Assembly (NCBI GenBank): GCA_947561395.2
Contig: OX387188.1
Span: 12,116,061-12,180,060, forward strand
DNA length: 64,000 nt
Source of the DNA: Buxus sempervirens
Taxonomy: Eukaryota; Streptophyta; Magnoliopsida; Buxales; Buxaceae
Reading direction: 5' to 3'
Part shown: in pieces, positions 426 through 43,567 of the stretch
Layout of the letters: every line of letters begins with the position of its first letter
Position numbering within the stretch: position 1 is the first letter of the stretch
Position numbers and translations under genes: made by a program
The notes under the pieces: model-generated
What the model was told of the DNA's origin: nothing
Seen by the model: the letters and a program-made list of their open reading frames with translations, nothing else
Database searches by the model: none

Positions 426-427
426 GG

Positions 428-3618: not shown

Positions 3619-3758
3619 TATCCGGTATTAAGTGCCGGATAAGGATATGTCTTATTGTATCCAGCCATAATGACCGGATACACGCATATACCTTTGTAAC
3701 CGGCAATATATACCGGATATGAATGGAATTGTTCTTAACCGGCCTGAGTTGCCGGTTA
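3619..3758. repeat. 39-bp-period dyad array in element C leader (4 units)
   Basis: Four 23-bp imperfect palindromes of the form TATCCGG-N9-CCGGATA start at 3619, 3658, 3697 and 3736, exactly 39 bp apart. The last two have TAACCGG/CCGGTTA or mixed arms, so both sides have changed together in unit 4. An array at the same place in element A (39033-39172) has the same spacing. No TATA box follows closely in sense direction. Confidence 0.9.
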
Positions 3759-3764
3759 ATGCTG

Positions 3765-4520
3765 AAATGGCCCTTTTTGACTCATTTTTTCATCAGATTA
3801 GGTTTTTTTTTTCATTCCCACTTGATGTTCACCTTAACTTGGCCTCTAAAACTTGCCCCAAATTGGGCTTGGACATCATTCTTGCTATATTCACAAATTC
3901 ATAAAAAAAACATGGCTTTACCTTGCCACCTTGTATTACCTTCAATATGGTATTCATAGTATACCTTGGCCTGTAAAACATGCAAACGGCCTTCCCACAT
4001 TTACACCCAATTCCTCAAACGCAATTGTGTGCTTTTAGCTGAAAACGTGTTTCTCCGCCTTCAAGCGTATGGTTTTTGGGTTTTGGCTTAATTGGCAACT
4101 TAGAACTCAAGTCTAGTGATGCCCGGAATCGAATCACAGATCCCATTGTCATCACATCATTGACTCAAATTCTAAGGTAAATGTTTTCACTTTCGCTTTC
4201 CGAAGTCACGACCTCGGTGCGCCAAGCTACACACATTCATGGTTCAACTTCCTATAGGTAATGGGTAGGCTGTGCAAATAGTTTAAAGTGCTCAAGTGTA
4301 ATTTAAAATTGAGGTAACATTCACAACGTCCCAGCCCCTTGCCACTCTTTTTCGTAGCCATGCATTCAATTTCAAGCCAAGGCACATATGACATTATAAT
4401 GAAGCTAAATACAAGCAAGCAAGAGAACCAAAGCAACTAAATATGCACACAAGTATTACATGCCCCAAGAAGTAGTATACAAACATGTTATTTGTTGCAC
4501 AAATCACTATTAGATCATGA
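3765..4520. other. Element C leader, no gene
   Basis: Non-coding leader aligning closely with 39180-39920 of element A. It contains GCCCGGAATCGAATC near 4118-4132 (minus strand GATTCGATTCC), which resembles a pol III B box, but I see no matching A box. No protein-coding signal. Confidence 0.6.
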
Positions 4521-4526
4521 AAAGCA

Positions 4527-5130
4527 TGCTTGTAAAATTCAAAACATCCCCTAAATTTCCAGATTTTATGCTCTTTTTCTCATGCTCAAAGTGTACCATT
4601 TCTACCCAATTTGAAGCCTAAAAATTCAGCAACTACTTGACATGGTCCAAAAAGTGCTTTAATTAGGTACAACATGCTTGAAATCTCCCAAAATACACAC
4701 TAAATTTCCAGATTTCATGTTCTTTATTTTTATGCTCAAGTGACATTGTTTTATGCCCAAATCCAAGCCTAAAAATACAACACCTAAATGTATGGTACAA
4801 GAGATGTTTGGTTCAAGGAAACATGCTTGAAAAAGCCCAAATTTATCCATTGAATTTCCAGATTTTGTATTCTTCATCTTTGGTGCTCAACATGCTTTAT
4901 TCATGCCCAAATCAAAGCCTAGGAATTCAATAACTAAAATATGGCATAAGAAAGGTTTGAACTGGTGAAAACATGCTTGGAACTCCCAACATATACCCAT
5001 TGAGTTTACTGAATTTATGCCCTTCATTTTCATGCTCCAACATGGCACTGAAACCTCCCAAAACAAGGTAAGAAAATATAACAAGTAGGCATGCACACCA
5101 AGATAAGCCCATAAACATGATCCTAGGCAT
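4527..5130 (-). repeat. Degenerate ~148-bp repeats, about 4 units (element C leader)
   Basis: Units begin with CATGCTTG at about 4527, 4673, 4822 and 4972, and each contains a version of AAATTTCCAGATTT followed by a CATGCTC-like word. Spacing is 146-150 bp. The units are much more diverged than the 76-bp repeats. Element A has the same kind of units from about 39928. Function unknown. Confidence 0.6.
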
Positions 5131-5290
5131 AATCCAATAATACACACATGTCTTTATCCATGTAAATTTCAAAGCACCCTCATCAGATTTCAAAATACAA
5201 CAATATGCAACAAAAAAAAAATCAGATTAGCAAGCATTCAAAAATAAATAAAAAGCATGAACGAATACACAAAATGGCTTAAATCCACAA

Positions 5291-5309
5291 GTCCCCAGCA
5301 GAGTCGCCA
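5291..5309 (-). other. Primer-binding site of element C
   Basis: Minus strand TGGCGACTCTGCTGGGGA starts two bases after the end of the 5' LTR. An 18-nt tract beginning TGG next to an LTR is the usual place where a tRNA 3' end primes minus-strand DNA synthesis. The identical PBS is present in elements A and B. Ogre elements in legumes are reported to use an arginine tRNA; I could not check the match to any tRNA. Confidence 0.8.
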
Positions 5310-7236
5310 GTTGTGAGACACGGGAAAAATCACCGGGATGATTTCCCCTCCGTCAGCACACGGGCTCAACGCAAAATTGGGAGAGTCGCCACCATTCAGA
5401 ATTTTGGGGTGTGAATGGACACCAAAAGATTCAAAACTATGCAAAAATAGCTAAAAGGCAAATTCTAGGGTAAAAATAATCCTACTTGAAAATCAAATCC
5501 AGAGATGGGTAAGGGGATTAGATTATGAACGGGGGAAGGTGTTAGGCACCCCCATTCACCCACACAAGGTGGTTGCCAAGTGTTTGTTCATGCAAAAAAG
5601 ATAATAAAGCTTGCTAAAAATCATTAAAAATATTGGAAAAGAATTAAGCCAATGTGTGATATTTTCACATGAGGAATCCAAATGGATTCTAGATCCTCTT
5701 TTATGTCAATATCACTTCTGGAATATCATAAAAAGATGGAAATCAAAGCAAAAATTTTTCAAAACCAAGTTGAGGCAAATCCGGAGAATTTGGTAAAAGT
5801 AATGCCATTTGTCTTGAAATCATTCAAATCCCATTTTAAATTGATCCAAACCAAATCCATTTGAAAGATTATCGTAAATAATAGTTCTATGCAAAATTTC
5901 ACCCCATTCCGATTAAAATCCTAGGAGTTATATTCCTTTAAAGTTGCTGCCGGAGAAAATCAAAAGTGGCAAGTAGGCAAGTTCGGAAAATCACTTAGAA
6001 ATATCCACTCCATAAAAATCCATGAAATTTGGTGTGATTGAAGTCTGTATGGCCATCTTTCGAAAGAAACTAGCCTCATAAAAAAATTCACTCGGATGTG
6101 CCTTGGGTGGTCTCCCAAACAGGCCCCAAAGATCACAGATTTACCTAGAAAAGTGTCATTGGGCAATTCTGAGTAAATCTGTTACCAATAATACAAATGG
6201 AGTCAAAAAATTATGAAACCAATAAGATTTGAAAATAGACTTATAGGGGAGTGCCCAGAAACAAAAATCGCTCAAATCGGACTTAAAACGAACACATGGC
6301 GCTCCGTCGAAGTGACAAGTTCCGTATTTGAACCTGAACTGTCCAATCAACTTCGACAGAGAGGTGTCAAAAATCCGCATGATAGAAATTAATGAAATTT
6401 GGTGGACATAAACTAGAAAGCCTCACCTTTCCCATGGTTCTAAAATCACTCCAAAATTCATCGAGACGATAAAGTTATGAGTGTCCGAAGTTGGGGTACA
6501 GTTGCTGTCAAGTTAAGCCCTTTTTGGAGAAAAACAATTCAAAACTGTGACAAAGTATGTGCAATTCGTGCAAGATAAATACAAAACCTTTAAAAATCAT
6601 TTTAAAACATTCCCGAATTGATTGAGGCCATTTATTTCAGATTTATCACAATAAATGTAATAAACCCAAAATATGAGCCTATCCCGCCAAAACGGGTGCA
6701 ATGTATGTGTAAGTGAAAATCATTCAAGAACAATATAACAACATAGCATGCATTCTCATTCATTTAAAATAGGGTTCTAAAAGCAACCTAGGGTTCCGTT
6801 CCATTATCGTTTCCCTTTGTTCCCTCTCCCCGTTAAACACGGTTCTTCAAGATAATCATGGGGTACTTTGAATATGAAACGGGCTTCAAAGATTCAAAAG
6901 GCTTTATTCTACATAGGTTCTAGTACTAGGGTAAATCCCCAGTCTCGTTTCTCCTAGATCCCGCCTTCACGTTTTACGGCTAGGGGGAGTCTTGAGATAC
7001 TTTGAGCCGGGGAAGGATTTTCATACACACAAAAAGGCCTTATTCTACAGAAAGGTAGAAGAAGAGACTAGATCTAGAAATGTAAAAACAGAAAATAAAA
7101 GAAAAGTTTGAGGCTTACCTGGGTTCTGGAAGCACTTCCGCAGCGGTTTCCCTCTTCACTCGGAGCTCTTCTTGGCAGAGATTCTTGGCAAGAATTCAAG
7201 GCAAGAGTTAATGGCCATTTGGTTAAGGAGGAGCCT

Positions 7237-7247
7237 CCTATTTATAG
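7237..7247 (-). promoter_or_regulatory. TATA box of element C LTR
   Basis: Minus strand CTATAAATAGG, about 165 bp downstream of the dyad array in sense direction and about 120 bp upstream of the splice donor. The same motif is at 19913-19923, 23101-23111, 42583-42593 and, as CTATAAATAGA, 56143-56153. Transcription start not determined. Confidence 0.75.
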
Positions 7248-7410
7248 GCAAAGGTTAGGGTTAGGGTTGGTGAGAATGGTAGACACAACATAATGTCTAT
7301 AGCCCACCAACCTTAACCTTAAGGCTATTTCCGAGATTTCCCTTCATTTAAGTACATGATGGTAAAAAGTGAAATCTTTCGGAAAACCCTAATTTTGAGC
7401 AAAACTTGTG

Positions 7411-7550
7411 TATCCGGCATGTCAGGCCGGATACAAAAGGGTCTTAATGTATCCGGCATATAATATCGGATATACTAAGGATTGCTTGTATCCGATATCT
7501 TTCACCGGATACAAAGAGGAGTACTTGTATCCGGCCTGAGTTACCGGATA
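7411..7550. repeat. 39-bp-period dyad array in element C LTR (4 units)
   Basis: 23-bp dyads TATCCGG-N9-CCGGATA (one arm mutated to ATCGGATA in unit 2 and TATCCGAT in unit 3) start at 7411, 7450, 7489 and 7528, exactly 39 bp apart. The 16-bp spacers are not conserved. The array sits near the sense-5' end of the LTR, upstream of the TATA box, where an enhancer would be expected. Confidence 0.93.
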
Positions 7551-7640
7551 CAGGTAAAAACTTATTTCCTTCAATTTTTGTACTGGCTTTCAAGGAGATA
7601 ATGATTTTTGATGATTATTGTGCAATTTGGGGTGTCTACA

Positions 7641-9894
7641 CCAGGTACAACCCTGAAAGTTCTACAATTGAATTAAAGACATTCCTCACAGGTGATGCCC
7701 AAAGTGTTGTGTACATGCTGGGTGGGATCCACCATTTGATTGGATTCATGTAGGAGAAGAAGATTGATTCACAAGCCATTTCTTATTCAATTTTTAACTG
7801 GACCTATTGCCAACTTGTTCTTAACCATAAGAAAATATCCAAAGGATAAGTTTGATAAGCTCCTTACCATCAAAGCATAACCTTACAATTACACTTTTTA
7901 AGCCTATATTTGGACTGGAATAGACATTGGATAGAAATAAATGGAAAATACAAAGCTAGATATCGTCAAAACTAACAGAATTGATTTGGAGCCAGTATGG
8001 ATTTTGTTTTATGAAGATAGAAGTTGTGTTTTTGGTGTTGAATAAGTGGGTTATCCAACTTTACCCAAGGAATGGCAACAGGGTGGATTTTGTTTTATGG
8101 CTAGTGCTGCCAGTAATCCACCCAAAGATGCCCTTTAAAAACAAATTTAAATGATATCTTCTTTGATAGTCAACATACAATCCTAAAGATGCCCTTCAGA
8201 AGGAGTTGCAAGACAAAACTAAGATCACAACCTTTTTTTTTTTTGGGTGTTATACGGAGTATATGCTGAAAAAAATGGTTTGCCTGCATGCTACAAACCC
8301 CAAAACCAAAGAGAAACAAAGGACAGCACAAAGACTCAGAACCTCAGATCAATATAGGACCTAAATGTAACCAGAATAACAGAGAGATCACAAGATAGTC
8401 TAGCGTAGAGAAGAGAAGAGGTTTTTTGAGTGTGTTGGGGAAGGAATTTATAGAACAAAAAGGACCTAACAGGATAAAAAATAATCAAGGAAATGGAAAT
8501 CAAAATTAAGAAAAAAAATTAATAAAGTACAAAAGTAAAGAGGCCTTTGAAAGCTTTTGGCTTTTTGGGGAGATGATGAGGCATGAGGGGCATCGAACCA
8601 AATTCAACAAACATAAAACTAGCGCCAGACGACCTCACTCAGATTTTCACCAACCATTCACCATCGGCACCAGATTTATCATTGTGGTTTTTGCCTTCCG
8701 TAAGAATTAAGAGATGGAAGTGGTATTGTTGGGAGATTAGGTAGCGGAAGAGTTGATCGATGAAACGATAGAAATAAAAGAGAACCATTGAAGCAACACT
8801 AACTCGGAACCTAACCATTAACAAAACACCAAACTATAAAACCTAGCCATTACAATAAAACACATCAAACGATCGCCACATAACTAGAACACGTTGATTA
8901 CTTTCAAAGAGAGAACCAAAAAAAAAAGCAGAGAAACCTTGACCACAACCAGAAGGAGGAGGAGATAAACAATTAAAAACTTACCAGAAACCTTGAGCAG
9001 TCGAAGACTTTGTGCTTGAGAATTGTAAAAAACCGAGGGTCTCGTTAAATGTGATCCAGAAAAATCTTGTCATGTGAATGGATCCAACACCATAAAATGA
9101 ATGAAGCTCAAATCTGAAATTAAAAAAAGGGTCGTTGTTTCCAATTCTTTGCAGACATTAAGAATGCATCACAGATCAATATATTGAATTGATCAGATAA
9201 CTGTTGGTTATCAACCAAAAGAGAAATGAAAAGAAAAAAAAAAAGGGAAATAAATCTGCAAAGCAAAATAGCACACAGGTTCTAAGTCTTTATTACCAAT
9301 GGATTAACACAGGTGCAAATCTCTAGCTACGAATAGCAACAATATGTAATAACATGCTCACTTCAAGTGGATAACTGTTTAAGAGGGTGCATAGGAATTC
9401 AATGATGAGAAGCATCTTAAATACAATTAAAAAGCCAATCCATAAGCTAATATTAACACGAGAGTTTCACTTTCCAGAAGTAAAATAGCTCAAAAATCCC
9501 CGTATGAATAAGAGGAATAGTAAACAGAGAAGACTTCGACAGAGAACATACTCTCGAGCTTCGATTTCTAGGGTAGACATTGAAGCTGCTTCTGCGTAGA
9601 CAATACAAACAAACCTGTAATATGGTTCAAAGAAATCTTAATCTCGATTTCTCCATGAATGAGAACCCTACTGATGCGTGTCCTTCTCCTTTAGAGAGAA
9701 CCCTATCGATACACCCTTGCTTTTTGAGGTATCTACACAGGGTGTGATACCTGTGTAGATACCTGAAGAAATAAGTCGATAGAAGTTCTTACTCTGTAAA
9801 TAAACGTGTTAGGGTTAAGGTTTGTGTTGATGGCGATGAAGGCTCCGCTTTGTTCCTTTAGATTTCCTGTATCTTCTCTCTCTTTATTTTCCGG
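7641..9894. other. Unassigned AT-rich DNA between element C and CACTA end F
   Basis: About 2.25 kb with no convincing coding region, LTR boundary or transposase. A 15-bp inverted repeat with an 8-nt loop lies at 9727-9764 (arm AGGTATCTACACAGG). It may be the interior of the CACTA element that ends at 10148, into which C inserted; this is inference, because no CACTA left end is visible. Confidence 0.5.
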
Positions 9895-10148
9895 TCATTG
9901 GGGAAAACGGCAATGGACGACTATCGCTCGGTAGCGCTTGGAGAAAACAGCAATGGAGTAGGACGAGGGAAAACGGCAATGGAGCAGGACAATTGTGGGC
10001 CAAGGGGAAGAAGGAGGCGTTGGAATTTGGGGCAAAAAGAAGACGACGGAAAAACAATTCATTCGCGCGGCTTTATTGGGTTTTTGCCGGCGGCTTTTAA
10101 AAAACCGCCGGCAAAAATTCACCCTTGTTGCCCCCTTTTTTTGTAGTG
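9895..10148. mobile_element. CACTA-type transposon terminus (F)
   Basis: The segment ends in CCCTTTTTTTGTAGTG, the complement of a CACTACAAAAA terminal inverted repeat. Just inside is GCCGGCGG/CCGCCGGC (10086-10112) and repeated GCCGGCAAAA-like words, the kind of subterminal repeat seen in CACTA/EnSpm elements. The end abuts the LTR fragment E, so F inserted into E. The other end is not in the window, probably because it lies beyond element C. No transposase is visible. Confidence 0.65.
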
Positions 10149-11349
10149 TTCCCAAACTTGCCTCCAAGTACCTCAAGAATCCTCTCTAGCCGTAAAACGT
10201 GAAGAGAGAGCTAGGGGAAAGGGGAACAGGTGGATCCCTAGAATAAAACCCCATAATCTGTTCTTTTCTTTTTTTTTTTATAGAATAAGGCCTTTGATTG
10301 TGTTTGTATACCCAAACCTATCTCCAAGTACCTCAAGACTCCTCTCTAGTCGTAAAACGTGAAGAGAGAGCTAGGGGAAAAGAGAACAAGTGGATCCGTA
10401 GGGTAAACCCCCATGTGCTATAATCTGTGAGATGTGGTTGCTTTTACTATCATGTGAATGTTTTGATGGTTTTATTTTGAATCTGGAGGAATCCTATGAA
10501 TCCATGATATTTATAGCATGAGATCCCCACTTCTTTCTAAAATTTGGATTTTTCATACCTTTGCACCTACAACACTGTTTTCTTAATTTTGGTGATATTT
10601 GGCTAGGATTCTAGATCTACCATGATCTATATGTAGATCTAAAACCAAAAGCCTAAAAGTAACCTGTAGGGTTTCATGACATGATTTTAAAATTGTTTTT
10701 GGTCTTGGAGAAAGGATCCTATGGTCTAAACTCTCCCTTTTGATGTTTTTTCATCAACATGGGTTGAGTGGGGGTTCTATATCTCCACTATTGAGAGATC
10801 CGGATCAGATCTGTACTCCAAGTAACTGTATTCTTCAATGATTTAATCAAGAGATTTCAATCTAGTTTTTCAACCTTTTAATGGTTTAGCCTAAAGCTAG
10901 TTTTTTAGGTTTCTCTTTAGATTAGTTTTATCTGATTTTTTATCTCAATTTTATTTTAATCATGAAACCCTAGGATTGGTATGATCATATTGAAGGTTCT
11001 GAATTAATCTAAATATTCATATGAAAAACCATACATTTTTGTTACTTTTATGTTTTTTTCCTTTTTTTAGCAAGCATTCTTTATTTTAACATGAACAATA
11101 CCTGGCTACCACCCTGTGTGGATGAATAGGGGTGCCTAACACCTTCCCCTGTTCATAACCTAATCCCCTTACCCATCTCGGGTTGGTTTTTTTTAATAGA
11201 GTTATTTTTACTCTAATTTTGCCTTTTTGTGTTTATTTGATGATTTTGGTGTCCATTCACACCTAAATAGAATGGTGGCGACTCTTTGTTTTTAAAAAAT
11301 CCCGTGTGATGATGAGGAAGTCATTAAATTGATTTTTCCATATCTCACA
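10149..11349 (+). mobile_element. LTR fragment E, sense +, truncated on the left
   Basis: The right end reads ...CCATATCTCACA at 11349, the sense end of a Tat-type LTR. The whole fragment aligns in opposite orientation with the solo LTR at 54753-56567, including the internal duplicated unit with CGTAAAACGTGAAG. Its sense-5' part is missing because CACTA F interrupts it at 10148. It interrupts element B just after the protease region. ATTGT at 11350-11354 would be the right copy of its target duplication. I cannot tell whether E was a solo LTR or part of a full element. Confidence 0.8.
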
Positions 11350-13858
11350 ATTGTGCTCTTCCATTATTATTTTTGCATGTTCAATTGATTGTTTAATGCC
11401 AAGGTTTGCAGTTTCTTCCGTTATAACCTTATTGCCTATCTCGTGCTTCGGCCCATTCGGGTGTGCGTCGAGATCAACATTAGGATTACAGGGTTTATCA
11501 TGGTTATGTTTGTTTTTACTTTCATTTTCAGACACATGCAAATAGAAGAACTGATTCAGATATTTATTAAAAAGAGCAGAGTTCTCTACAACAAAAGCAT
11601 CAAAAGATGTGGTGGGAACTCCCTGTGGAAGGTTAGCCTTTCTAATTGCAAAAGGGGTGGAACTCCAGTTCTTGAGTGGCTTAGCATCTTCCTCTTCAGC
11701 TGCATTCATCTTCAGTTTAGCATCACCCACTTCGACCATAAAAATGTACTCCTTTGGATCACTTTCATCACTTGACAGATAGATTACTTCATTAGCTACA
11801 CGGGGAGGCTCATCCTCGCTTTCTTTTGAGTCAGATATGTCAATGAAGAAGGGAGTGGATGGTGGCACTCCTTTGATTGAGATATCATGAACACCGAGCC
11901 ACATGGGCATCCCATGTGAGGGAGAGGTGAGGGCGACGTGCTGTGGCTGATCAAACTCTTGTGATGGTGTGTCAGTGAGGGCCGGTGGAGGTACGGCAAT
12001 AGGGATCCGTGGGGGCGAGTTTGTTGAAGACATACAATCAGGAGGCCATTCAGCAGACCTTTGGGGATGGAATTCTGGAACTTCGACAGGTGGTTCTAAG
12101 ACATGTGGCATGCCTTGAAACATCTGTGCCAATCCTCCAAAGTCGCCCATTCCTTCCCTACGAGGAGGCGATGGAGATTCATTGAGCCATCCACATTCCA
12201 TCGAGCGCCATGGCCCCTAGACTTTCTCATTGCTTTGGGATTCATTACTGATCACAAAAACGTAGACATCCGGATTGTCTTCAGTTTTGGATTCTTTGGC
12301 AGGAGCACATAGTGGGATTTCCTCAGTGGTGATCACGAAATCAGTGAGCAGCGGTACAATAGTAGGTGGCAGCGGTTCAGCAACTTGTTCATTTATTTCG
12401 AATATTTCCAGTAAGCCTTCAGGTGACCAGTCAGGGAATGGTATTTCAGTTTCCAAGACCATCTCCATCGAGTCCAGAACGGATGGTTCTTCCCAAAACA
12501 TTGGTGCTATCCCTTCCAGGTTGTCCTCATCTCTCTCCTGTGAAAGTGGGAACTCATCGCCCCATCCTTGGGCAACTACATTCTCTAGCGAGTTGGCTGC
12601 CCTCAATGCCTCATTTGTGAAGATCTTGTACAAGTCCCCATGCATGCAGATAGGCCACTCTGGTTCCCTTCCTTCCATCCTAGCCCTTTTCAGTTCAGAT
12701 TGCCTCCCAAAAAGTCTTGCATAATCCTCTGGCATTGGGTCATAGCCCATTCCAAATCCGATTATCTTCTCTGATACTTGCATGGCCGTTTTCACTCCTT
12801 GCTTGTAACGGCCTAATCCTTCTCCTGCCCGCAATCCCCAGTCGGCGCATTTAGCAGCGCCAAACACTGCATTTCTCTTTCTCTTCCTGGATTGTTGCCT
12901 CCTTTTATGTTCAAGGACATTGACTACATTGATCATTTCCACAACTTGGAAGTTCAGTGAAGTGGGTAGCTCATAGTCAATGTAGGGCACCCCTATCATT
13001 TCAAATTCCCTGTGATCCTCAGCATGCATTGTTATTAGCTCATTTCCAAAAATGAATCTTACCATCCTGTGTAGAGAAGAAGGTACTGCTCCAGCATGAT
13101 GTAACCAGGGTCGCCCAATTAGCAGGTTGAAAGAAGCATTGATGTCCATTACTTCAAATACAAGGGTGAAGGGCTTTTCAGCTATAATTATGGTCAAAAT
13201 GACCTCCCCAAGGGATTCCCTCTTCGAGTTGTCAAATCCTCTGACATTGTGGACACTCGGCTTAATAAGGGAGGAATCGAGCTGTAGATTGTGAAAAGTC
13301 CTTATCGGACAGATGTTCAAGGCGGAAGCATTATCTATCATAGCTCTTTTCACTATCATATCACAACACTTGACAGTGATGTATAGAGGTTCAATATGAT
13401 AGCATCCTTCTGGCAGCAGGTCTTCGGCTGAAAAAAAGATGGCTTTTGGTGCCCTGATTTGGGAAATGATAGCTTCCAACTGTTCCGGCTGAGTGTCTTC
13501 AGGTACATGTGCATCCGCGAGGACCTTCATCAAAGCATCTCTGTGTTTGATCGAGTCCACAAGGAGACGCATGATGGAGATTTACGCCGGGTCGTACTCA
13601 GGTACGTGGATACTGTTGTGTAGGTCAGTGATATCTTCCTCAGATGCTCCGCCCTTGCCTTTCTGGGTTTGTGGCTTCTCAACTGCCACTTCCTTCCCCT
13701 TTTCTCTCTTTTTTCTTTCTTCTTCTGTCTCTCCCTCGGGTACGGGTAATGGGTCAGTGTTGACATATTGACCAGATCGGGTGATCCGATCAATCTCAGC
13801 TTCAGTGTATATGGGAGTGGTTTGGTAATAGGAGGGGTCAATGGTATAGAGGATGGGG
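11350..13858 (-). pseudogene. Element B gag-pro linker and aspartic protease
   Basis: The frame enters at 13858 with DPSYYQTTPIYTEAEIDRITRSG, runs through an EK-rich linker, hits TAA near 13569, and continues with the protease: KHRDALMKVL, CYHIEPLYITVKC, the active site AMIDNASALNICP (DNA at the catalytic triplet) and LLIGRPWLHHAGAVPSSLH. A glycine-rich GLRAGEGLGRYKQG follows, a G-patch-like motif seen at this place in related elements. A single in-frame TAG at 12217 separates a further acidic tail that runs into LTR E at 11349. Reverse transcriptase is absent. Two in-frame stops and no frameshift over 2.5 kb suggest modest age. Confidence 0.85.
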
Positions 13859-20310: not shown

Positions 20311-20312
20311 AC

Positions 20313-31569: not shown

Positions 31570-31570
31570 A

Positions 31571-32780: not shown

Positions 32781-32784
32781 CCCC

Positions 32785-33706
32785 GCTGGTATGTTGCCCC
32801 AGCGTTTTTAAGCCCAAACGGCATGACTGTATAGTGGAATGTGCCCCAAGGTGTGATAAATGCTGTTTTCTCTTGATCCTCCTTAGCCATCTTGATCTGA
32901 TTGTACCCCGAGAAACCATCCATGAAGGAAAACAGGCTATGTACCGTAGTATTATCGACCAGAATGTCGATGTGTGGAAGCGGAAAATCGTCCTTTGGGC
33001 TTGCCCTGTTTAAGTCTCTATAATCCACGCACATTCGGACTTTCCCGTCCTTCTTTGGTACCGGCACTATGTTTGCGAGCCATTCAGGGTACGTAGAGAC
33101 TGCCAAAAATCCAACTTGGAACTGTTTGACCACTTCGTCCTTGACCTTCAGAGTCCACTCAGGTTTCAATCTTCTCAGCTTTTGCTTAATCGGCTTAACC
33201 CCTGGTAAAATTGGCAACTTATGCACCACCATGTCAGTGTCTAACCCCGGCATGTCCCGATATGACCTAGCGAACACATCTTTGTAGTCTGCCAAGAATT
33301 GTGACATTTCATTTTTCTGCACATCAGACAAGCATGACCCGATTTTCACAATTTTTGGGTCATCTTCAGTCCCAAGGTTTATGGATATGGTCTCCTCAAT
33401 ATTAGGTTGGAACCCCTTTTCATGACATTCCAATTGGTATTCAATTTCTTTTGAAACGTCTTCTTCTTCGACCTCAGTCTCTTCTTCGACCCCCATGAGA
33501 TCAAAGTCGAGCTCAAGGTTGAAGTCATATTCAACCTGGTCCAATTCGGTCTGATTATATGGTTCATAAGTGGTTTGGACCTTTTTGAAAAATTTAAATT
33601 TTTTAGAAAAAATAGAAAAATCTTTTTGGGTTTTTTGTGGGCCTTCTAAACATAATTCCCCTGAAGACGAAGGCCCATTAGAACCTTCAGGGAAATGGCA
33701 TTCCAC
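32785..33706 (-). pseudogene. Element A reverse transcriptase N-part
   Basis: An acidic spacer (EEETEVEEEDVSKEIEYQL) precedes the RT fingers and palm: DVFARSYRDMPGLD, NIVPVPKKDGKVRMCVDYRDLN, FSFMDGFSGYNQI, MPFGLKNAGATYQR. The frame is lost at a run of four C (32781-32784), after which the rest of RT continues in another frame. The enzyme would copy element RNA into DNA. A homopolymer-length error in the assembly is an alternative to a real mutation. Confidence 0.9.
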
Positions 33707-34401
33707 TATTGGAGTTTTTTTTTGGAAGCCGCGTCAGTTTGCCACACAGACGCTGCTTCAAAGGTAAGGGGAGTTTCCTCCCAATTGTTCATTACAAAAT
33801 TTTTGGGAGTAGGGGAAATAGGGAAAGCCTGCTCCTCAAGCCCAGCATCCGATGCCATCATCACCGGGTGGGTACTGCCCTTTTCTGTTACGGGGCTCAA
33901 TCCAGAAATGACCTCTTCTGGAATCTTTATTGCGGCCCAATCAATGAATGGCAGTTCCATGTCTGCCCCTGTCTTTTCGCCTTCAGTCATGGCGAAGAAG
34001 GCCCCAACATCCTCAGAATAGTCCAACTGCTGCTCGGGCTGTGGCCCAGGTCCATTTGCTGCTTTCAGTATCGGAGATGGGTTATAGGGTTGTAGGGTCG
34101 AAACCAAAGGCTTTTGAAATGGGTTGACATTTCGGTATGGGGGCTTGGACTGGTCCATGGGAGGAGAAATTTGGATTATATATGAGGGTTTTGGAAAGTT
34201 CACCCTCAGATGCGGGAGTTTTCCTCTGCTTCTGCTCTCCCCTTCTTCATATTTCATTCTTCTCCAGCCTCTGGGCTTGAAGCCCAACCCTACCTTGGGG
34301 ATCAGTTTCTTAGCCGTGATTGGCTCCACCATCCCTTGCAGATTGATCCCCAGGCCTTTCCCTGGGTGAAAGTGGTATTTCTCCATCACTTTCTTGACCA
34401 T
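33706..34401 (-). pseudogene. Element A gag-pro/RT spacer with G-patch-like motif
   Basis: Opens with KVMEKYHFHPGKGLGINLQG, a glycine-rich motif like the G-patch found after protease in related Tat elements, then a basic and proline-rich stretch and LPFIDWAAIKIPEEVISGLSPV. It joins the protease frame by a shift near 34400 and the RT frame by a shift near a T9 run at 33715-33723. In Ogre elements an intron lies between protease and RT; I found no clear splice pair here. Confidence 0.65.
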
Positions 34402-35102
34402 TTTTTCTGCAGTGGTCCCCTTTTCCTTCTTTTTATCACACCCCCAGGTATGTAATTGACCGCCTCAAATTGGAATGAGTGGAATGCAATCTTGTCGACA
34501 GTTAGGTCCACATTGATTAAGGGTACATCAGGTGACACGATGGGCGGCACCAAGTTTTCGGCTAGGACTGTTATCACCCTTTGCCCTCTTATATATTTCA
34601 CCCTCTGGTGGAGCGTGGATGGTATTGCCCTAGCCGAATGTATCCACGGCCTTCCTAGGAGCAGATTGAAAGCTGCGGGTATATCCATCACTTCAAATGT
34701 GATGTTAAAGATATTCGGCCCAATTGTGACCGGCAGTTCAATCTCCCCTAGGGAGTGGGTCTTGGAGCTATCAAAAGCCCTTACTATCCACCCATTTCGT
34801 TTTATCCTTGACTGGTCCAGACCCAGCTTGGTAAAAGTGATTAACGGGCAAACGTTTAATTCCGACCCGTTGTCAATTAAAACCCGTGCAATCATGCAGC
34901 CCTTACAAAGCACAGTGATGTGCAAAGGGTCCACATGATAACACCCACCTGGGCTGATCTCACCCTCTGAGAAACTTATCACATTATGTGACAAGATTTG
35001 ACCAACCATTTTACCAAGCTGGTCCGGATCAATTGTCTGGGATACGTGTGCACTCTGTAGCACCCTCAACAATGCATCCCTGTGCTTTTCAGAATTCAGC
35101 AA
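34386..35102 (-). pseudogene. Element A aspartic protease
   Basis: KHRDALLRVLQSAHV, CYHVDPLHITVLCKG, the active site RVLIDNGSELNVCP (DNG triplet) and LLLGRPWIHSARAIPSTLHQ define the retropepsin-like domain. The same domain appears in C (1-425) and B (11350-13858). The frame is cut off from gag by a shift near 35098 and from the spacer by a shift near 34400. The domain itself is uninterrupted. Confidence 0.88.
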
Positions 35103-36001
35103 CAGGCCCAGTATTGAATCTGGGCCGGGACCTTGTTCAGCTGATCCACAAGATTAAATTCACTTTTCTTTATTATTTTTATGAGGTCTGCTGCCTCATT
35201 TTCCGCACCCTGGGGGGTGTCTTCTCCTACTTTATTTTTTCCTTTTTGTTTTCTTTTTTCTTCATTTTCTTTTTTTTCTTTCTCTACTTCTGTCTCTTTT
35301 TCTTTCTCTTCACCCCCTGCACATTTCCCCGACCTCGTCATGAGGTTCACCTCCTCCTAGTTCTGGTTCCTGACCATTGGAACCGTAGCCGTGATTCCCT
35401 CGCTGTAGTTCCATGGTACAGCGGCTTCTGAATAGGCTAATTTAGGGATGTTAACCACTAGTGGCTGGAGTTTGGACCGGGATGTATGGGCCGGTTTAGG
35501 GATAGTCTGGGCTGGCTGCACATTTACAACCAAGGGTTGAAGTTTGGGTTTGGTGGGGACAGAAGAAGTGATGGAAGCAGTGGTGGGGTCAAGATTGATG
35601 ACCAGTGGAGCCTTAGACGGCCTGGATGGTGAGCAAATGGATGGACTGCAATTGAAGACCAATGGGGGCCTTGCAGTATTCATCTGGGCCATGAGTGAAG
35701 AGACCCGGTTTAGAGAGGAACTTATGTCCTCAGCAGCAAGATTATTATTTTTTTGGGAGACCATGTTGATCTCCTCTTCTTCCTCTTCTGGGAAAAATCG
35801 GACCTGGACTGTAGTCCCCACAGGTGCTATAAGCTGAGATGGGTCAAAGGCCCTTCTCGTGGTGGATATGGCAGTGATGGAGTTGGATGGGCCTGCCCCA
35901 TTGTGGTAAGGCAGAGGGTTCTGTCCAATATCATTCCCGGACGGGGCCGGTGCAGAAGTGTTGAACCAAAGCCTTCTGGTCCAACAGGTCCTGGACCGCA
36001 T
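35096..36001 (-). pseudogene. Element A gag-pro linker
   Basis: Repeated KLQPLVVNIPK/KAPLVINLDP phrases (valine-rich, proline-rich), then an EK-rich stretch with LMTRSGKC. A shift near 35965 separates it from the knuckle segment, a TAG at 35357 interrupts it, and the last part (35350-35096) runs out of frame before the protease. The same linker in C has CAG where A has TAG at 35357. Confidence 0.75.
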
Positions 36002-36600
36002 GCTTCAGCACCCAGCAGGTATCTGTAGAGTGCCCCGGTGCACCCATGTGGAAGTCACAGGTGGCTGCCGGATCAAAATTCCTTCCCTTAGTGGCATTCG
36101 GGTTAGGCTCTTTCAGAGTCAAGTATTCACCCTTTAGCAGGGTTGACAGTAGTTGGGACAGAGATATCGAGAGAGGAGTGAAGACTCGGTTCTTCCTTGC
36201 TGCGAACCAGGCATCCCGCTCCTCCTTAGTAAAGGTCCTCCTTGTGTTAGCTGGCACAGAGGGAGAGAAGTTGACATTCAGCGGGGTCTGGTACGACTGC
36301 TGGGCCTGCTGGGCCTGTTGGGGTGCCGAGATGTTGACGTGAAGTGGCTTCTTGGCTGGAGGAGCCTGGACTAGGTTCACCTCCCCTTCTTTTCGGGCCC
36401 CCGTCTTTTTAAATCCGGCCCCTTTCTTCTGGGCCATGGAGGCCGAGGAATCAGACTGCCCAGCCAAAGTAGAGTAGTCTATCAGCCTTCCTGACCTGAC
36501 CCCTTCTTCGATCCGGTCTGCCACTTGCACTAGGGCTGCAAAGTTGGTGGTGACTGACCCACCAGATGGTTGTAAAAGGGCTGCCCCAGTGTGCCCATAA
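35931..36600 (-). pseudogene. Element A gag C-part with zinc-knuckle-like motif
   Basis: DRIEEGVRSGRLIDYST, a lysine and glutamine-rich region (PQQAQQAQQSYQ), RRTFTKEERDAWFAARKNRVFTPL and the knuckle-like CDFHMGAPGHSTDTC (CX2HX5HX4C), where one Cys of the usual CCHC is His. It would bind genomic RNA. It is separated from the gag core by a one-base loss near 36567, in the same neighbourhood as the 1775 stop in C. Confidence 0.85.
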
Positions 36601-37408
36601 ATGTGGAGATCATCTCCGGCTCTTGCATAGGTGGCCTGACCTGGGAGGCGGCCTCTCTCCACCTCTTGGCGTATTGCCGTACTGGCTCATCTTTGCCCTT
36701 GGTCATCCTCATCATGTCGTACCGGTCTGGCACAATCTCCGAGTTGAACTTGTACTGGTCCAAGAAAGCATCGGCTAGGTCCTTCCACCTCCTGATTATT
36801 CCATGGTCCACTGTAGCGAACCACCGAAGGGCTGACCCGGTCAGACTCCTCTGGAAGAGCTGGATCAGTATGCCATCGTCTCGACCAAATTGGCATAGGG
36901 CCCCGCAGTATAGTTTCAAATGGCTTAATGGGCAGCTCGTGCCATCAAATTTGTCGAAGTCTGGGCACCTGAACTTAGCCGGTAGACAGACGTCCGGGTA
37001 CATGCACAGGTCTTCGAAGGTGGTGCCTATATGGCTGCCTCCCCCCTTCACTTCCTTCAGCTCTGCCTGGATCCTCTCTATCCTCAGCAGCATTTTCTTT
37101 TCCATCTCATCCCTAGCCTTTTCTTTTTCCAGCTCTTTCTCAGACTCTACTGTATTTTCCCTGATCAGAATGGGCTCAGGGACTGGTTCAAAAATGGGCT
37201 CAGGCATGGGCTGAGCCGGAGGCGGTATGTGGGCCTGAGGTGGTGGTGCCTGGTGGGAGGTAGAGGCCTGGTTTTGGGCTTGGGCCTGTTGGGCCTGCGC
37301 CGCCAGTAAGTCCCCCAGCATTTTGGCCAGACCGGCCACTTGCTCCTGCAATTGAGTAAAGTCCTGAGCAGGGACAGTAGCTTGGGCTTGGTTCTCTTCA
37401 GTATTCAT
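36567..37408 (-). pseudogene. Element A gag core
   Basis: Starts at MNTEENQ, the first ATG after the acceptor at 37481. An Ala/Gln/Pro-rich N-terminal region with a KELEKEKARDEMEKK coiled-coil stretch leads into the capsid-type core: CPDFDKFDGTSCPLSHLK, LFQRSLTGSALRWFATVD, DAFLDQYKFNSEIVPDR and VRQYAKRWREAA. The core reading frame is intact up to the shift near 36567. Confidence 0.88.
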
Positions 37409-37666
37409 GGCTCTTGCTTTGGATCTGGTCACGGGAGCAATGACTGCAAATAAGTGCACCTGGGTTGAAAGTAAGTGTACCTGAGGAAAAAAAATAAATA
37501 GAACATGTTAGCTTCCATTTAACTTGAGTCACACCCCTATATATGTAAACCAGTAGGTTAGGTGAACACCAATCCAGATTTTTTCTTGTTTTTTTTTTTT
37601 GTTTTTGTTTTTGTTTTTTTTTTTTTTTTGTTGGAATATTTTTTTTTTTTGTTTTGATTTTGTGTT

Positions 37667-38728
37667 GGAATATTCTAGGGCTTCCAAGGGTCCCAAATTT
37701 TTTTGATTTGATTGATAAAAATAACCAACCAAGGTTTTCATGGAATATTCTAGGGCTTCCAAGGGTCCCAATTTTTTTTGATTTGATTGATAAAAATAAC
37801 CAACCAAGGTTTTCATGGAATATTCTAGGGCTTCCAAGGGTCCCAATTTTTTTTGATTTGATTGATAAAAATAACCAACCAAGGTTTTCATGGAATATTC
37901 TAGGGCTTCCAAGTATCCCACAAATGTTTTGATTTGATTGATAAAAATAACCAACCAAAGGTGTCTTGGAATATTCTAGGGCTTCCAAGTATCCCACAAA
38001 TGTTTTGATTTGATTGATAAAAATAACCAACCAAAGATGTCTTGGAATACTCTAGGGCTTCTAAGTATCCCACAAATGTTTTGATTTGATTGATAAAAAT
38101 AACCAACCAAAGGTGTCTTGGAATATTCTAGGGCTTCCAAGTATCCCACAAATGTTTTGATTTGATTGATAAAAATAACCAACCAAAGGTGTCTTGGAAT
38201 ACTCTAGTGCTTCCAAGTATCCCACAAATGTTTTGATTTGATTGATAAAAATAACCAACCAAAGGTATCTTGGAATATTCTAGGGCTTCCAAGTATCCCA
38301 CAAATGTTTTGATTTGATTGATAAAAATAACCAACCAAAGGTGTCTTGGAATACTCTAGGGCTTCCAAGTATCCCACAAATGTTTTGATTTGATTGATAA
38401 AAATAACCAACCAAAGGTGTCTTGGAATATTCTAGGGCTTCCAAGTATCCCACAAATGTTTTGATTTGATTGATAAAAATAACCAACCAAAGGTGTCTTG
38501 GAATATTCTAGGGCTTCCAAGTATCCCACAAATGTTTTGATTTGATTGATAAAAATAACCAACCAAAGGTGTCTTGGAATACTCTAGTGCTTCCATGTAT
38601 CCCACAAATGTTTTGATTTGATTGATAAAAATAACCAACCAAAGGTGTCTTGGAATATTCTAGGGCTTCCAAGTATCCCACAAATGTTTTGATTTGATTG
38701 ATAAAAATAACCAACCAAAGGTTTTTTT
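37667..38728 (-). repeat. 76-bp tandem repeat, 14 copies (element A leader)
   Basis: Units GGAATATTCTAGGGCTTCC ... AACCAACCAAAGG start at about 37667, 37741, 37817, 37893, 37968, then every 76 bp to 38652. The units nearest gag (37667-37893) form a slightly different subtype (AAGGGTCCC); the rest are nearly identical, so recent array expansion is likely. Element C has a related array with 7 units. Overlapping open frames of 68 residues are repeat artefacts. Confidence 0.96.
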
Positions 38729-39032
38729 TATTTTTTTTCAAATTTGCTGAATTTTCTCAGTTTTCAAGTTCAAAAGTTTGACTAACACATGTTTGAGTTG
38801 AGTTGGTGTCAAAAAATATGACACCTTGGTTTCCTCTTTGATTTTCAAACTTAGGTTAAATCCTGAAAGAATATTTTATTTTATTCTTTTTTGTTTTTCT
38901 TTTTTTTTCTTTTTTTGTATTTTGGAACATTTTTTATGTTCTTTTCGGGGTGCCTAAGGATGATCCACAGTGTTTTAGGCATTTTATTCTGAAAATTTGG
39001 GCTGAACAGCCAATTTGTGCATTTTTTGAACG

Positions 39033-39172
39033 TATCCGGTATAATATACCGGATAAGGATATGCCTTATTGTATCCGGTCACCCTAACCGGATACACGCA
39101 TATGCCTTTGTATCCGGAAATACATACCGGATATGATTAGAGTTGTTATTAACCGGCCTGAGTTGCCGGTTA
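39033..39172. repeat. 39-bp-period dyad array in element A leader (4 units)
   Basis: Dyads at 39033, 39072, 39111 and 39150, exactly 39 bp apart; unit 4 has TAACCGG/CCGGTTA arms, the same paired change as in element C. It is about 300 bp from the end of the 76-bp array on the PBS side. Confidence 0.92.
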
Positions 39173-39179
39173 TTGCCGA

Positions 39180-40660
39180 AATGGCCCTTTTTGACTCATT
39201 TTTTTTCACCAGATTTGATTTTTTTCATTCCCAATTGATGTTCACCTTAATTTGACCTTCAAAACTTGCCCCAAATTGGGCTTGGACATCATACTTGCAA
39301 AATTCCCTAAATTTAGGAATAGAACATGGCTTTACCTTGCCACCTTGTATTACCTTCATTCAATATGGTATTCACATTATACCTTGGCCTGTAAAACATG
39401 CAAACGGCCTTCCCACATTTACACCCAATTCCCCAAACGCAATTGTGTGCTTTTAGCCGAAAACGTGTTTCTCCACCTTCAAGCGTATGGTTTTTGGGTT
39501 TTGGCTTAATTGGCAACTTAGAACTCAAGTCTAGTGATGCCCGGAATCGAATCACAGATCCCATTGTCATCACATCATTGACCCAAATTCTAAGGTAAAT
39601 GTTTTCACTTTCGCTTTCCGAAGTCACGACCTCGGTGAGCCAAGCTACACACATTCATGGTTCAACTTCCTAATAGGTAAAGGGTAGGCTGTGCAAATTG
39701 TTTCAAGTGCTCAAGTGCAATTTTAAATTGTGGTAACATTCACAACGTCCCAGCCCCTTGCCACTCTTTTTCGTAGCCATGCATTCATTCCAAGCCAAGG
39801 CATATATGACAAAATAATGAAGCTAAATACAAGCAAGCAAGCAAGCACCAAATATGCACAAAAATATTACATGCCCAAAAAGTGGTATACAAAACATGTT
39901 ATTTATACAAACAACAATTAAACCATGGAAGCATGCTTGAAACCCAAAAGCATTCCCTAAAATCCCAGATTTTCACGTTCTTTTTCATGCTCAAAGTGTA
40001 CCATTTACCCCAAATTGAAGCCTAAATTTTTAGCACTTACTTGGCATGGTTCAAAAGTGTTTCAATGAGATAAAATATGCTTTAAAATCTCCAGAAATAT
40101 GCACTAAAATTTTCAGATTTCTCATGCCCAAAAGTGCATCCTTTATACCCCAAATTAATGCCTAAAAGTTTAGCAACTACTTGACATGGTATATTGGTGA
40201 ACATACTAAAAAAATCCACAATGTGCACTAAAATTCCAGATTTCATGCTCTTGGTTTTCATGCTCAAATTGAATCCCTCTATACTCCAAATCAAAGGCAT
40301 GGCATAACAAAAATTTTTAAGCACAAAAAAGTATGCTTTATAGGAATCATGTTTGAATACCCAAAAATTCTGAACCCCTAGATTTCGTGCTATTAATTCT
40401 CATATTCAAACCATGGTATTCAAAATTCAAATTAGAGCATGTTATCACCAAATACAACCAAATCATGCTTCAAGATAGGCTTTTCCTAAATCAACCTTTA
40501 GGCAACATCAAGCAAAACATACATGACTTGATTCATAAAAAATTCAAAAGCATCCCAATCTGATTTGAAATACAAGAATATATACAAATGAATTAAACAA
40601 AGTAGCAAGCATTCAAAAATAAGTAAAAAGCATGAATATACACAAAAAGGCTTAAATCCA
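39180..40660. other. Element A leader with degenerate ~148-bp repeats
   Basis: Aligns with 3765-5290 of element C. Degenerate units with CATGCTTGAAA and CAGATTT words begin near 39928, 40075 and about 40200, fewer and more eroded than in C. No gene seen. Confidence 0.55.
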
Positions 40661-40664
40661 CAAG

Positions 40665-40682
40665 TCCCCAGCAGAGTCGCCA
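40665..40682 (-). other. Primer-binding site of element A
   Basis: Minus strand TGGCGACTCTGCTGGGGA begins two bases after the sense end of the 5' LTR. Identical to the PBS of C and B. Confidence 0.85.
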
Positions 40683-40684
40683 GT

Positions 40685-42980
40685 TGTGAGACATGGGAAA
40701 AAATCACCGGAATGATCATCCCTCCGTCAACACACGGGGCTCGAAATAAAAGTTGGGAGAGTCGCCACCATTCATGATTTTGGGGTGAGAATGGACACCA
40801 AAATATTTAAAAATCATCAAAAAGTGCAAAAATGCCAATTCTAGGGTAAAAATAACCCTACTTAAAAATTAAATCCAGAGATGGGTAAGGGGATTAGATT
40901 ATGAACGGGGGAAGGTGTTAGGCACCCCCATTCATCCACACGAATTGGTAGCCAAATGTATGTTCATGCATAAAGAAAGTAAGAAAGCTTGCTAAACATC
41001 ATGAAAAACCTTGAAAAATGTCAGATGTATGATATTTTCACATGAAGATCCAAATGGATTCTAGATCCTCTCTTATGTCAATATCATTTCTGGAATACCA
41101 CAAAAGGATGGAAATCAAAGCACAAGTTGCTCAAAACCACGTTAAATCAAATTCGATAAAAAGTATGCCATTTCCCTTGAAATCATTCAAATCCAATCCT
41201 AAATTGAACCAAACCAAATCCATTTGAAAGATTAGGGTAAATAAGAGTCTCATGCAAAATTTCACTTCATTCCGATGAAAATTCTAGGAGTTATGCTCCT
41301 TTGAAGTTGCTGCTGGGGATTTTTAAAAAGTGATAAGTGAGCAACTTTGGAAAATTGTCTAGAAAAATCCACTACATAGAAATCCGTGAAATTTGGTGTC
41401 AATGAAGTCTGTATGGCCATCTTTTGAAAGAAACTAGCCTCATACAAAGACTCATTCGGACGTGCCTTGGGTGGTCTCCCGAACAGGCCCCGAAGATCAC
41501 AGATTCGCCCAGAAAAGTACAAATGAACAGTTCTGAGTAAATCGGCTACCAATAATTCAAATGGAATCCAAAAATTATGAAACCAACGGGATTCGAAAAT
41601 AGACTCACAAAGGAGTACTCAGAAACAAAAATCGCTCGAATCGGACTTACAACGAACACATGGCGGTCCGTCTAAGTGACAAGTTCTGCATTTGAACCTG
41701 AACTGTCCACCCAACTTCGACAGAGAAGTGTTAAAAATCCGTTCAATGGAAATTCATGAAATTTGGTGGACATAAACTAGACAGCCTCACCTTTCTCATG
41801 GTTCTGAAATCGCTCCAAAATTCATCCGGACGATGAAGTTATGAGCGTCCGAAGTAAGGGTACAGGTGCTGTCCAATTAGGCCACTTTTGAAGAAAACCA
41901 AATCCGAAAATTGATAAAATGTGTGTGATCCGTGTGAGATGAATCCAAAACTTTTGAAAAACATTTAAAAACACTCCAGAATTTGATTGAGGCCATTTAT
42001 TAGAGATTTATCACAATGAATGTAATAAATCCCCAAATGTGAGCCTATTCACCAAAAAAACGTAATATGTGTGCAAGAGTGAAAAACCAAGTAAGATTAA
42101 TACAGCCACATATCATGCATATAGATTCAACAAAATAGGTTCTAGCATAGCCTAGGGTTCCGTTCCATTATCGTTTCCCTCTGTTCTCTCTCCCCGTTAA
42201 ACACGGATCTTCGAAATAATCAAGGGTACTTTGATTATAGAACGGTTTTCAATCATTCAAAAGCCTTATGCTACATGGGTTCTAGCACTAGGGTCAATCC
42301 CCAGTCTCGTTTCTCCTAGATCCGCCTTCACGTTTTACGGCTAGGGGAGTCTTGAGATACTTTGAGCCGGGGAAGGATTTCCACACACAAAAAAGGCTTT
42401 ACACTACAGAAAGGTAGAAGAAGAGATCTAGATCTAGGAATGTAAATACAGAAATTAAAGAGAGGTTTGAGGCTTACCTGGATTCTGGAGGCACTCCCGC
42501 AGCGATTTCCTTCTTCTCTTGGAATTCTTCTTTGCGAGAATTCAAAACAAGAGTTGGTTCTTTTTTGCTTGAGGAGGAGGCTCCTATTTATAGGCAAAGA
42601 CTAAGGTCATTGGTAGACACAACTTAATGTCTAGAACTCCCCCAACCTAAACCCTAAGGTTATTTCCGCGATTTCCCCTCATTTAATGAGGGACATGATG
42701 GTAAAAGTGAAAAGCTCTCGGAAAACCCTAATTTTGAGCAAACTTAAGGTATCCGGTATGTCAGACCGGATAAAAAAGGGCCTTAAGGTATCCGGTACAT
42801 GGTACCGGATACACTAAGGCTCACATGTATCCGGTATGAGTATCCGGATACGGGAAAGGGTACTTGTATCCGGCCTGAGTATCCGGATACAGGTAAAAGT
42901 TTATTTTCTCCAATTTCTGTACTGGCTTTCCAGGAAATAATGATTTTTGATGATTGTTTGTGCAATTTGGGGTGTCTACA
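40685..42980 (-). mobile_element. Element A 5' LTR (2296 bp)
   Basis: Partner of 18012-20310. Sense order: dyad array (42889-42750), TATA (42593-42583), splice donor (42478/42477), conserved block with GGTGTTAGGCACC near 40913-40926, end CTCACA and PBS. Right flank CTTGT (42981-42985) is the second target duplication copy. Most of it matches the 3' LTR closely, but 42445-42505 differs in many positions. Confidence 0.95.
42750..42889. repeat. 39-bp-period dyad array in A 5' LTR (4 units)
   Basis: Dyads start at 42750, 42789, 42828 and 42867, exactly 39 bp apart, essentially identical to those in the 3' LTR. Confidence 0.95.
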
Positions 42981-43563: not shown

Positions 43564-43567
43564 TGGT

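Follow-up and report, generated by a model that had tools for sequence, protein, structure and literature searches.

In a 64,000-nucleotide stretch of Buxus sempervirens DNA (assembly GCA_947561395.2, contig OX387188.1, positions 12,116,061 to 12,180,060, forward strand; hereafter the window), eight phased arrays of the dyad TATCCGG-N9-CCGGATA were found in one family of Tat/Ogre-like Ty3/gypsy retrotransposons, represented by the elements A and B and by the solo long terminal repeat (LTR) C. The arrays could be promoter-level binding modules for a dimeric regulator, most likely a PMD/DUF7745-superfamily protein of the element itself, a reading to which we give an even chance. Two further LTRs, D and F, carry arrays of different sequence on the same frame, CCG-N11-CGG. 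The main features are listed in Table 1, with positions counted from the first letter of the window.

Dyad arrays of the B family

The eight arrays were confirmed at the positions reported in an earlier note on this DNA, and every step from unit to unit is 39 bp (n = 30 units). The dyad is exact in 24 of the 30 units, while four units have one mismatch and two units have two. If up to two mismatches are allowed, the window contains 31 sites, compared with 0.09 expected from dinucleotide shuffles; 30 of these sites are located in the arrays and one stray site is found at 29504. A motif-blind scan with arms of 6 and four slots resulted in 38 rows, of which 36 are located at the arrays or one register before them and the other two at 3277 and 45762, and three block shuffles gave 0, 0, and 0 rows. 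With arms of 5, at least 40% G + C and three of four slots, 45 rows were obtained, 38 at seven arrays, one at LTR D and six in a TG/CA microsatellite at 45.8 kb; the 40 block shuffles used as controls had a mean of 0.07 and a maximum of 1. Both scans recovered seven of the eight arrays; the one at 20876, with its two units, is not long enough to be detected by them. Searches with a two-unit pattern gave no match in a viral contig collection and two matches in a genome contig collection, both bacterial (Ignavibacteriales and Lachnospiraceae) and assumed to be due to chance. A degenerate unit, AATTTGG-N9-CCAATTT, was observed at 38994-39016, preceding the leader array of B by exactly one register; by eye, leader A has no in-register counterpart.

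The earlier note had described the arrays as standing in different contexts. The eight are not independent, since those at 7411, 20080, 23268, and 42750 represent one LTR and those at 3619 and 39033 one leader, so that only four contexts in one family can be counted. These four are distinct, namely the LTR U3, the leader and the promoters of two antisense genes, the two-unit array being a promoter array as well, which belongs to antisense gene 1. Spacers and centres, which had been said to vary freely, are largely diverged but show base preferences across the 14 non-redundant units. The base preceding TATCCGG is G in 12 of these units. In the dyad centre, T occupies position 1 in 11 units and position 3 likewise in 11, and all 14 have A or C at position 2. 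The paired change TAACCGG/CCGGTTA is found in both of the homologous leader copies, for which a single event is the best reading; the remaining four arm changes (units 7450, 7489, 3658, and 3697) are unpaired.

Constraint on arms and register

For LTRs A and B, substitutions were found at 2 of 56 arm positions and at 27 of 84 centre and spacer positions (p 2.7e-5), compared with 300 of 1908 positions in the rest of the LTR. The corresponding values are 2/56 and 17/84 for the leaders of A and B (p 0.005), and 0/56 and 45/84 for the LTR and the promoter of antisense gene 2 (p 2e-13); over the between-context comparisons, 0-2 of 56 arm positions and 45-47 of 84 centre and spacer positions differ. 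In total, the arms are conserved against centres and spacers in five of five comparisons tested (Fisher p 0.005 to 2e-13). The array has no gap column between LTRs A and B, compared with 17 in the adjacent 150 bp toward the TATA and 50 elsewhere in the LTR. Because the arms are conserved while spacers and centres have diverged, and because no indels occur in the array, arms and register look selected and appear to be under constraint. For selected promoter sites there is good evidence in the sequence, and selection on a symmetric binding site, as proposed in the earlier note, is supported by the arm conservation, the zero gap columns and the CCG-N11-CGG frame common to three families.

It is very unlikely that the arrays are a by-product of copying, duplicated with and within the element in the absence of selection. 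Such an origin would suit the four LTR copies and two leader copies among the eight arrays, as well as the agreement of spacers and centres of three contexts, which none of 5000 letter shuffles equalled, for spacers or for centres. With regard to a possible unit-by-unit descent from one ancestral array, same-index spacers of the three contexts agree at 59 of 144 positions, a value reached by 3 of 36 index permutations, and same-index centres at 55 of 108 positions, reached by 45 of 576 permutations. Copying is contradicted by the divergence of arms versus spacers in the five comparisons and by the absence of indels. Flank matches between contexts are short or none, and LTRs D and F have arrays of different sequence on the same frame. 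The special case of one recently duplicated 160-bp segment, which the earlier note named as a refutation, is likewise disfavoured, because the spacer identity between contexts is only 29-48%. Between flanks of 300 bp taken from different contexts, the matches are limited to a T-rich stretch of 42 bp, 16-bp inverted matches and a 36-bp repeat, the latter lying inside the stretch between the 3′ LTR of B and 20876.

Arrays of D and F on the same frame

The dyads of D (CCGTA-N7-TACGG) and F (AACCGCA-N7-TGCGGTT) differ in sequence from that of B, and all three fit the frame CCG-N11-CGG, with TAT-CCG-G in B, CCG-TA in D and AA-CCG-CA in F. The step of 39 bp holds in all eight B-family arrays, but related arrays of the window use other steps, namely 28 bp in D and 39, 28, and 87 bp in F. 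Outside the B arrays, six CCG-Nk-CGG sites with at least three of five complementary flank pairs were detected at k = 11, all of them in the U3 regions of D and F, compared with 0-3 sites at each of the other 21 gaps (range 3 to 24). With at least four of five flank pairs, the numbers are four sites at k = 11 and 0-1 at the other gaps.

A motif-blind scan of five LTRs (5-bp dyads, at least three repeats) returned from each LTR the rows of one CCG-N11-CGG array, the sole other rows being TCTCT in D and ATTTT in F. Such a dyad with at least two G/C in the arm occurred in 1, 0, 0, 0, and 1 of 100 dinucleotide shuffles of B, A, C, D, and F, respectively. In the alignment of B with D, the array is located in a non-alignable part of U3, between the alignable TATA region and the alignable LTR ends. 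A plus-oriented LTR E (10135-11350) is related to D (80% over 1.2 kb); it is cut at 10135, and therefore U3 and any array are absent from the match to D.

Promoter geometry

Three arrays are located 14-17 bp from a TATAA. For antisense gene 1, the TATAA at 20948 (plus strand) follows the last CGG of the array by 14 bp, and for antisense gene 2 the one at 27862 (plus strand) follows by 17 bp. In LTR F, the TATAA at 48286 (minus strand) follows the nearest CCG of the dyad set by 17 bp. The chance of a TATAA at this distance is 0.0044-0.0048 per side, with six contexts and 12 sides considered.

The same geometry bears on the idea that the dyads act in RNA, as 7-bp hairpins of the genomic RNA that would serve packaging, dimerisation or the control of translation. 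Any perfect dyad is by its structure able to form a hairpin and, judged by position, all contexts but the 5′ U3 copy would be inside the full-length transcript. A role as hairpins is nevertheless improbable, since the arm sequence is conserved over four contexts beyond complementarity, the distance from CCG to CGG is fixed in three families and the register is fixed in B. In addition, the three TATA-proximal arrays are, because of their location before the TATAA, outside the transcripts of their promoters. Of the binding site and the hairpin, both considered in the earlier note, the hairpin is the disfavoured one.

PMD/DUF7745 genes of B and F

Element B carries two antisense genes. The reading frame of antisense gene 1 is open in this copy, and PMD (PF10536) is detected in its spliced product across an exon junction (E 1.8e-17) as well as in 24929-25903 (E 3.5e-13). 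For antisense gene 2, DUF7745 scored above the cut-off in one of three pieces. Over 111 amino acids, the open frame of element F shares 33% identity with antisense gene 2. The same gene type occurs in two places and orientations, in F in sense upstream of gag and in B in antisense downstream of pol.

A search with the spliced protein of antisense gene 1, in which only the 7984 candidates sharing most words were scored, gave one PMD match, a MAIN-LIKE 1-like protein of Ananas comosus. Protein searches with residues 112-560 of antisense gene 1 and with the frame 28779-29675 gave no match, and no relative of the PMD exon was found in the PDB at E up to 1. In the viral contig collection, no relatives of the reverse transcriptase (RT) piece and of the PMD exon could be confirmed, with one and nine pattern-only stretches, respectively. 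PF04195 (Transposase_28) was not detected at E up to 10 in the spliced antisense gene 1 or in the three pieces of antisense gene 2. A literature search for DUF7745 gave no paper. According to the available sections of the sources, PMD is present in 57% of Ogre elements (PMC6317226), and the clades PMD-A1 and PMD-A2 are confined to Gypsy elements (PMC5418596).

Comparison with known systems

VANDAL elements are DNA transposons, and DUF1985 marks VANC. The available sections of PMC5735166 and PMC10398659 describe dense, family-specific short motifs in the non-coding regions of VANDAL elements, which differ between related families and have an element-encoded binder, as is proposed for the elements described here. 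The family-specific arrays in the LTR, leader and antisense promoters of B, with other motifs in D and F, correspond to this organisation. The VANC21 motif YAGTATTAY, in contrast, is arrayed in one orientation with repeats that gain or lose units (PMC5735166, available sections), whereas the arrays of the window consist of dyads in a fixed register within LTR retrotransposons. YAGTATTAY is not enriched in the window (2 sites versus 1.36 expected), Pfam scans of the antisense genes named no VANC-type domain and for both genes no DUF1985 row was obtained at E up to 10. In the available sections of PMC5735166 the term DUF1985 occurs once. The arrays would work like VANC/VANDAL arrays, without being a member of that system.

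Antisense accessory genes are also described for Retand, Grande and RIRE2 in the available sections of PMC11963269 and PMC7264820; those genes carry TRP28 or SMC-like domains, in contrast to the PMD/DUF7745 type of element B. Tandem repeats are described in the same sections, and no phased dyads common to LTR and antisense promoters are mentioned there. Among the literature matches listed, judged by titles and abstract openings, there was no paper on phased dyad arrays in a plant LTR. A term search of the available text of the GmOgre minisatellite paper (PMC3305785) revealed no palindromes, inverted repeats, promoters, antisense or binding.

PMD-carrying Ogre elements and the host proteins MAIN and MAIL1 share the protein superfamily of the element B genes (PMC6317226, PMC5418596, PMC7156037, PMC9899485, PMC9289625). 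MAIN and MAIL1 control genes and silencing, and the DOWN motif marks some of their target promoters (PMC7156037, PMC9899485). In the available sections of these papers, no target sites of Gypsy-encoded PMD proteins are described. The DOWN motif (CATGCAGTTT) does not match the dyads.

A further likeness exists to the sites of Gal4 type in fungi, CGG-N11-CCG, which are bound by a dimer and likewise have two CGG half-sites at a fixed gap of 11 bp. The polarity of the half-sites is opposite to that of CCG-N11-CGG. To our knowledge, zinc-cluster factors of the Gal4 type do not occur in plants, none having been sought in the window.

Every arm of the B-family dyads holds CCG or a one-base variant of it, and the consensus arms have one CCG and one CG, which makes methylation sensitivity of the dyads possible. 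Between LTRs B and A, changes affect 2 of 16 CHG and 0 of 16 CG in the arms, compared with 13 of 103 and 16 of 102 elsewhere, the arm changes being too few to judge. It has to be regarded as extremely unlikely that the CCG dyads are targets of host methylation or repression sites of a MAIN/MAIL1-type PMD complex. The CCG and CG sites of the consensus arms would agree with such a role, as would the silencing of transposable elements by MAIN and MAIL1 in Arabidopsis, which is described in the available sections of PMC5418596 and PMC7156037. Elements would, however, be expected to lose sites of a host repressor rather than keep them, and the DOWN motif has no exact match in the window, its one-mismatch matches at 16501 and 32816 being located away from the arrays.

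Proposed function and its weighing

In the mechanism proposed here, each dyad would serve as one dimer site with the fixed skeleton CCG-N11-CGG, and the bases just inside and outside the CCG would determine family specificity. Four tandem sites with steps of mostly 39 or 28 bp, which are 11 bp or about one helical turn apart, would permit cooperative binding on similar helix faces. In B, the LTR promoter, the leader and both antisense genes would all respond to one factor, which would link genomic-RNA transcription with the expression of accessory proteins that the element encodes. The likeliest regulator is an element-encoded member of the PMD/DUF7745 superfamily, working by itself or together with a host protein, and it may act as activator, as autorepressor or as a VANC-like anti-silencer of its own family. 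Since the sites are conserved and TATA-proximal, feedback by an activator or anti-silencer is preferred, with autorepression at the antisense promoters being equally compatible. From the sequence, we infer protein binding, the element-encoded nature of the binder and the sign of its action. An element-encoded binder is preferred because the visible families B and F both have a DUF7745/PMD gene together with a CCG-N11-CGG array, a co-occurrence that rests on two families, and because the flanking bases change symmetrically between families.

Alternatively, the arrays may bind a dimer of a host transcription factor. Transcription from the LTR and antisense promoters would then be driven by captured host sites, with the PMD/DUF7745 proteins as unrelated passengers, an explanation that we regard as a serious possibility, if somewhat short of an even chance. 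Plant LTRs often carry sites of host factors, for example stress elements, and the placement 14-17 bp from a TATAA suits any activator. The authors of PMC9899485, in whose available sections the chromatin contact of MAIN and MAIL1 is given as unknown, propose as one hypothesis that an unknown factor recruits these proteins. The three families, however, keep the frame and yet change the flanks symmetrically, which is more easily explained by factors diverging together with their element than by one host factor. For LOB domain proteins, the sole candidate looked for, nothing relevant was found among the literature matches listed.

Several observations weigh against binding modules for an element-encoded regulator. 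In three contexts the arrays lie close to the promoter and in others they are upstream elements, so promoter proximity is not general: the TATAA is 161 bp from the array in LTRs B (at 42592, minus strand) and C, 168 bp in A and 211 bp in D. No TATAA is found within 90 bp of the leader arrays, leader A having one at 98 bp and leader B none within 250 bp. Between LTRs B and C, a close pair with too few changes to show an arm contrast, the whole array is conserved (arms 0/56, centres and spacers 3/84). The shared frame is a post hoc observation, because D and F were noticed after B, D in a tandem-repeat list and F in an inverted-repeat list, the scan of five LTRs being motif-blind. The third step of F (87 bp) fits no simple register, and D, as a solo LTR, shows no coding part.

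The remaining points concern the candidate regulators. The frame of antisense gene 2 is broken in this copy. LTR C lies inside the transcription unit of antisense gene 1, between promoter array and coding exons, and gene 1 of this copy may consequently be driven differently or be dead. As antisense gene 1 and the frame of element F have no BLASTP similarity (E 5.9), gene 2 alone links B and F by direct comparison. The structure model of the PMD exon is unusable (mean pLDDT 40), and we know of no DNA-binding activity of PMD or DUF7745.

Element architecture and further repeats

The content of the window is plant DNA with dense, nested Ty3/gypsy elements, of which those relevant here are located on the minus strand. 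Two RNase H domains were detected in element B at 31576-33009 (RT_RNaseH, E 2.8e-25; RVT_3, E 3.7e-12). A second RNase H (aRH) besides the RT-linked one sets Tat apart, as described in the available sections of PMC6317226, and with this double RNase H and the PMD gene element B agrees with the Tat/Ogre group. The primer-binding site (PBS) CCCAGCAGAGTCGCCA occurs at 5294, at 40667 (element B) and at 46023 (element F) and was not matched to a tRNA; for Ogre, the PBS is named as tRNA-Arg type in the available part of PMC9289625. Neither a tRNA (ARAGORN, bacterial code) nor a match at Rfam gathering score was found within the window. Element B appears to be inserted into element F. From strand and order, we infer that the F pieces, namely a gag at 17131-18030, the sense PMD/DUF7745 frame, the PBS and the 5′ LTR, belong to one element.

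Table 1. Retrotransposon features and dyad arrays of the window (window positions; TSD, target-site duplication)
Feature	Position	Strand	Remarks
Element B	18012-42980	-	Tat/Ogre-like Ty3/gypsy; both LTRs present, 98.0% identical; TSD CTTGT each side
B 3′ LTR	18012-20310	-	
B 5′ LTR	40685-42980	-	
B coding region	30598-37507	-	several separate frames
B gag	36533-37507	-	
B G-patch	33709-34464	-	
B RT/RNaseH/second RNaseH	31576-33733	-	
B integrase	30598-31572	-	
Element A	1-7641	-	second copy of B family, cut by window edge; 5′ LTR, leader and gag visible
A 5′ LTR	5311-7641	-	
A gag	1775-2719	-	
Solo LTR C	21225-23498	-	B family, inside B; TSD GACCT/AACCT (4/5 match)
Solo LTR D	54753-56567	-	family other than B; TSD CATGC each side
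Element F 5′ LTR	46041-48902	-	PBS 46023-46038; probable right boundary, from TG..CA ends
Antisense gene 1 (B)	24708-27481	+	7 predicted exons, GT-AG introns, 771 amino acids; PMD, RG-rich ends, short coiled-coil-like stretch
Antisense gene 2 (B)	27979-29675	+	PMD/DUF7745 superfamily; long helical C-terminus by eye; frame interrupted in exon 1
F DUF7745/PMD open frame	44084-44650	-	sense, upstream of gag; DUF7745 1.5e-6
Dyad array, leader of A	3619-3758		4 units, one exact
Dyad array, 5′ LTR of A	7411-7550		4 units, two with one mismatch
Dyad array, 3′ LTR of B	20080-20219		4 units
Dyad array, likely promoter of antisense gene 1	20876-20937		2 units
Dyad array, solo LTR C	23268-23407		4 units
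Dyad array, promoter of antisense gene 2	27709-27848		
Dyad array, leader of B	39033-39172		4 units; unit 4 TAACCGG/CCGGTTA
Dyad array, 5′ LTR of B	42750-42889		4 units, 39 bp apart
Dyad array of D, CCGTA-N7-TACGG	56363-56463		units 56363, 56391, 56447; degenerate slot 56419; 28-bp register
Dyad set of F, AACCGCA-N7-TGCGGTT	48301-48475		48301, 48340 (one mismatch), 48368, 48455

Further repeats were observed in the leaders. Tandem repeats of 75/76 bp are located at 2828-3353 in A (7 copies) and at 37661-38722 in B (14 copies). Their consensus units hold another dyad, (C)TTGGAA-N11-TTCCAA(G), including GAATATTC, which we take to be heat-shock-element-like; this dyad is kept although the repeats of A and B are only ~74% identical. 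Tandem repeats of 51 and 104 bp at 43304-43980, beside the insertion site of B, are located in the probable leader of F. A TGTGCACATGTGTACA-type array with a 28-bp period and internal dyads (45765-45974) adjoins the PBS of F in its leader and may be a microsatellite.

Significance

For the PMD genes of Ogre-type elements, whose host relatives MAIN and MAIL1 control silencing, the locus offers candidate targets, a defined geometry and natural variants in three families. It is conceivable, though rather doubtful, that retrotransposon PMD/DUF7745 proteins are unrecognised dimeric, sequence-specific readers of CCG-N11-CGG that recognise the flanking bases typical of their family, with matched, helically phased arrays in the LTR and the PMD gene promoters of each Ogre-like family, and that MAIN/MAIL1-type host proteins descend from such a regulator. 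A PMD that binds DNA would be a new kind of regulator. If such readers exist, a retrotransposon would run a private circuit of transcription that resembles a retroviral transactivator and diverges with the family. An element-encoded binder would mean that plant retrotransposons own transactivator circuits, and a host-factor binder would point to an LTR switch used by several families. Under either binder, the arrays predict promoters that respond together.

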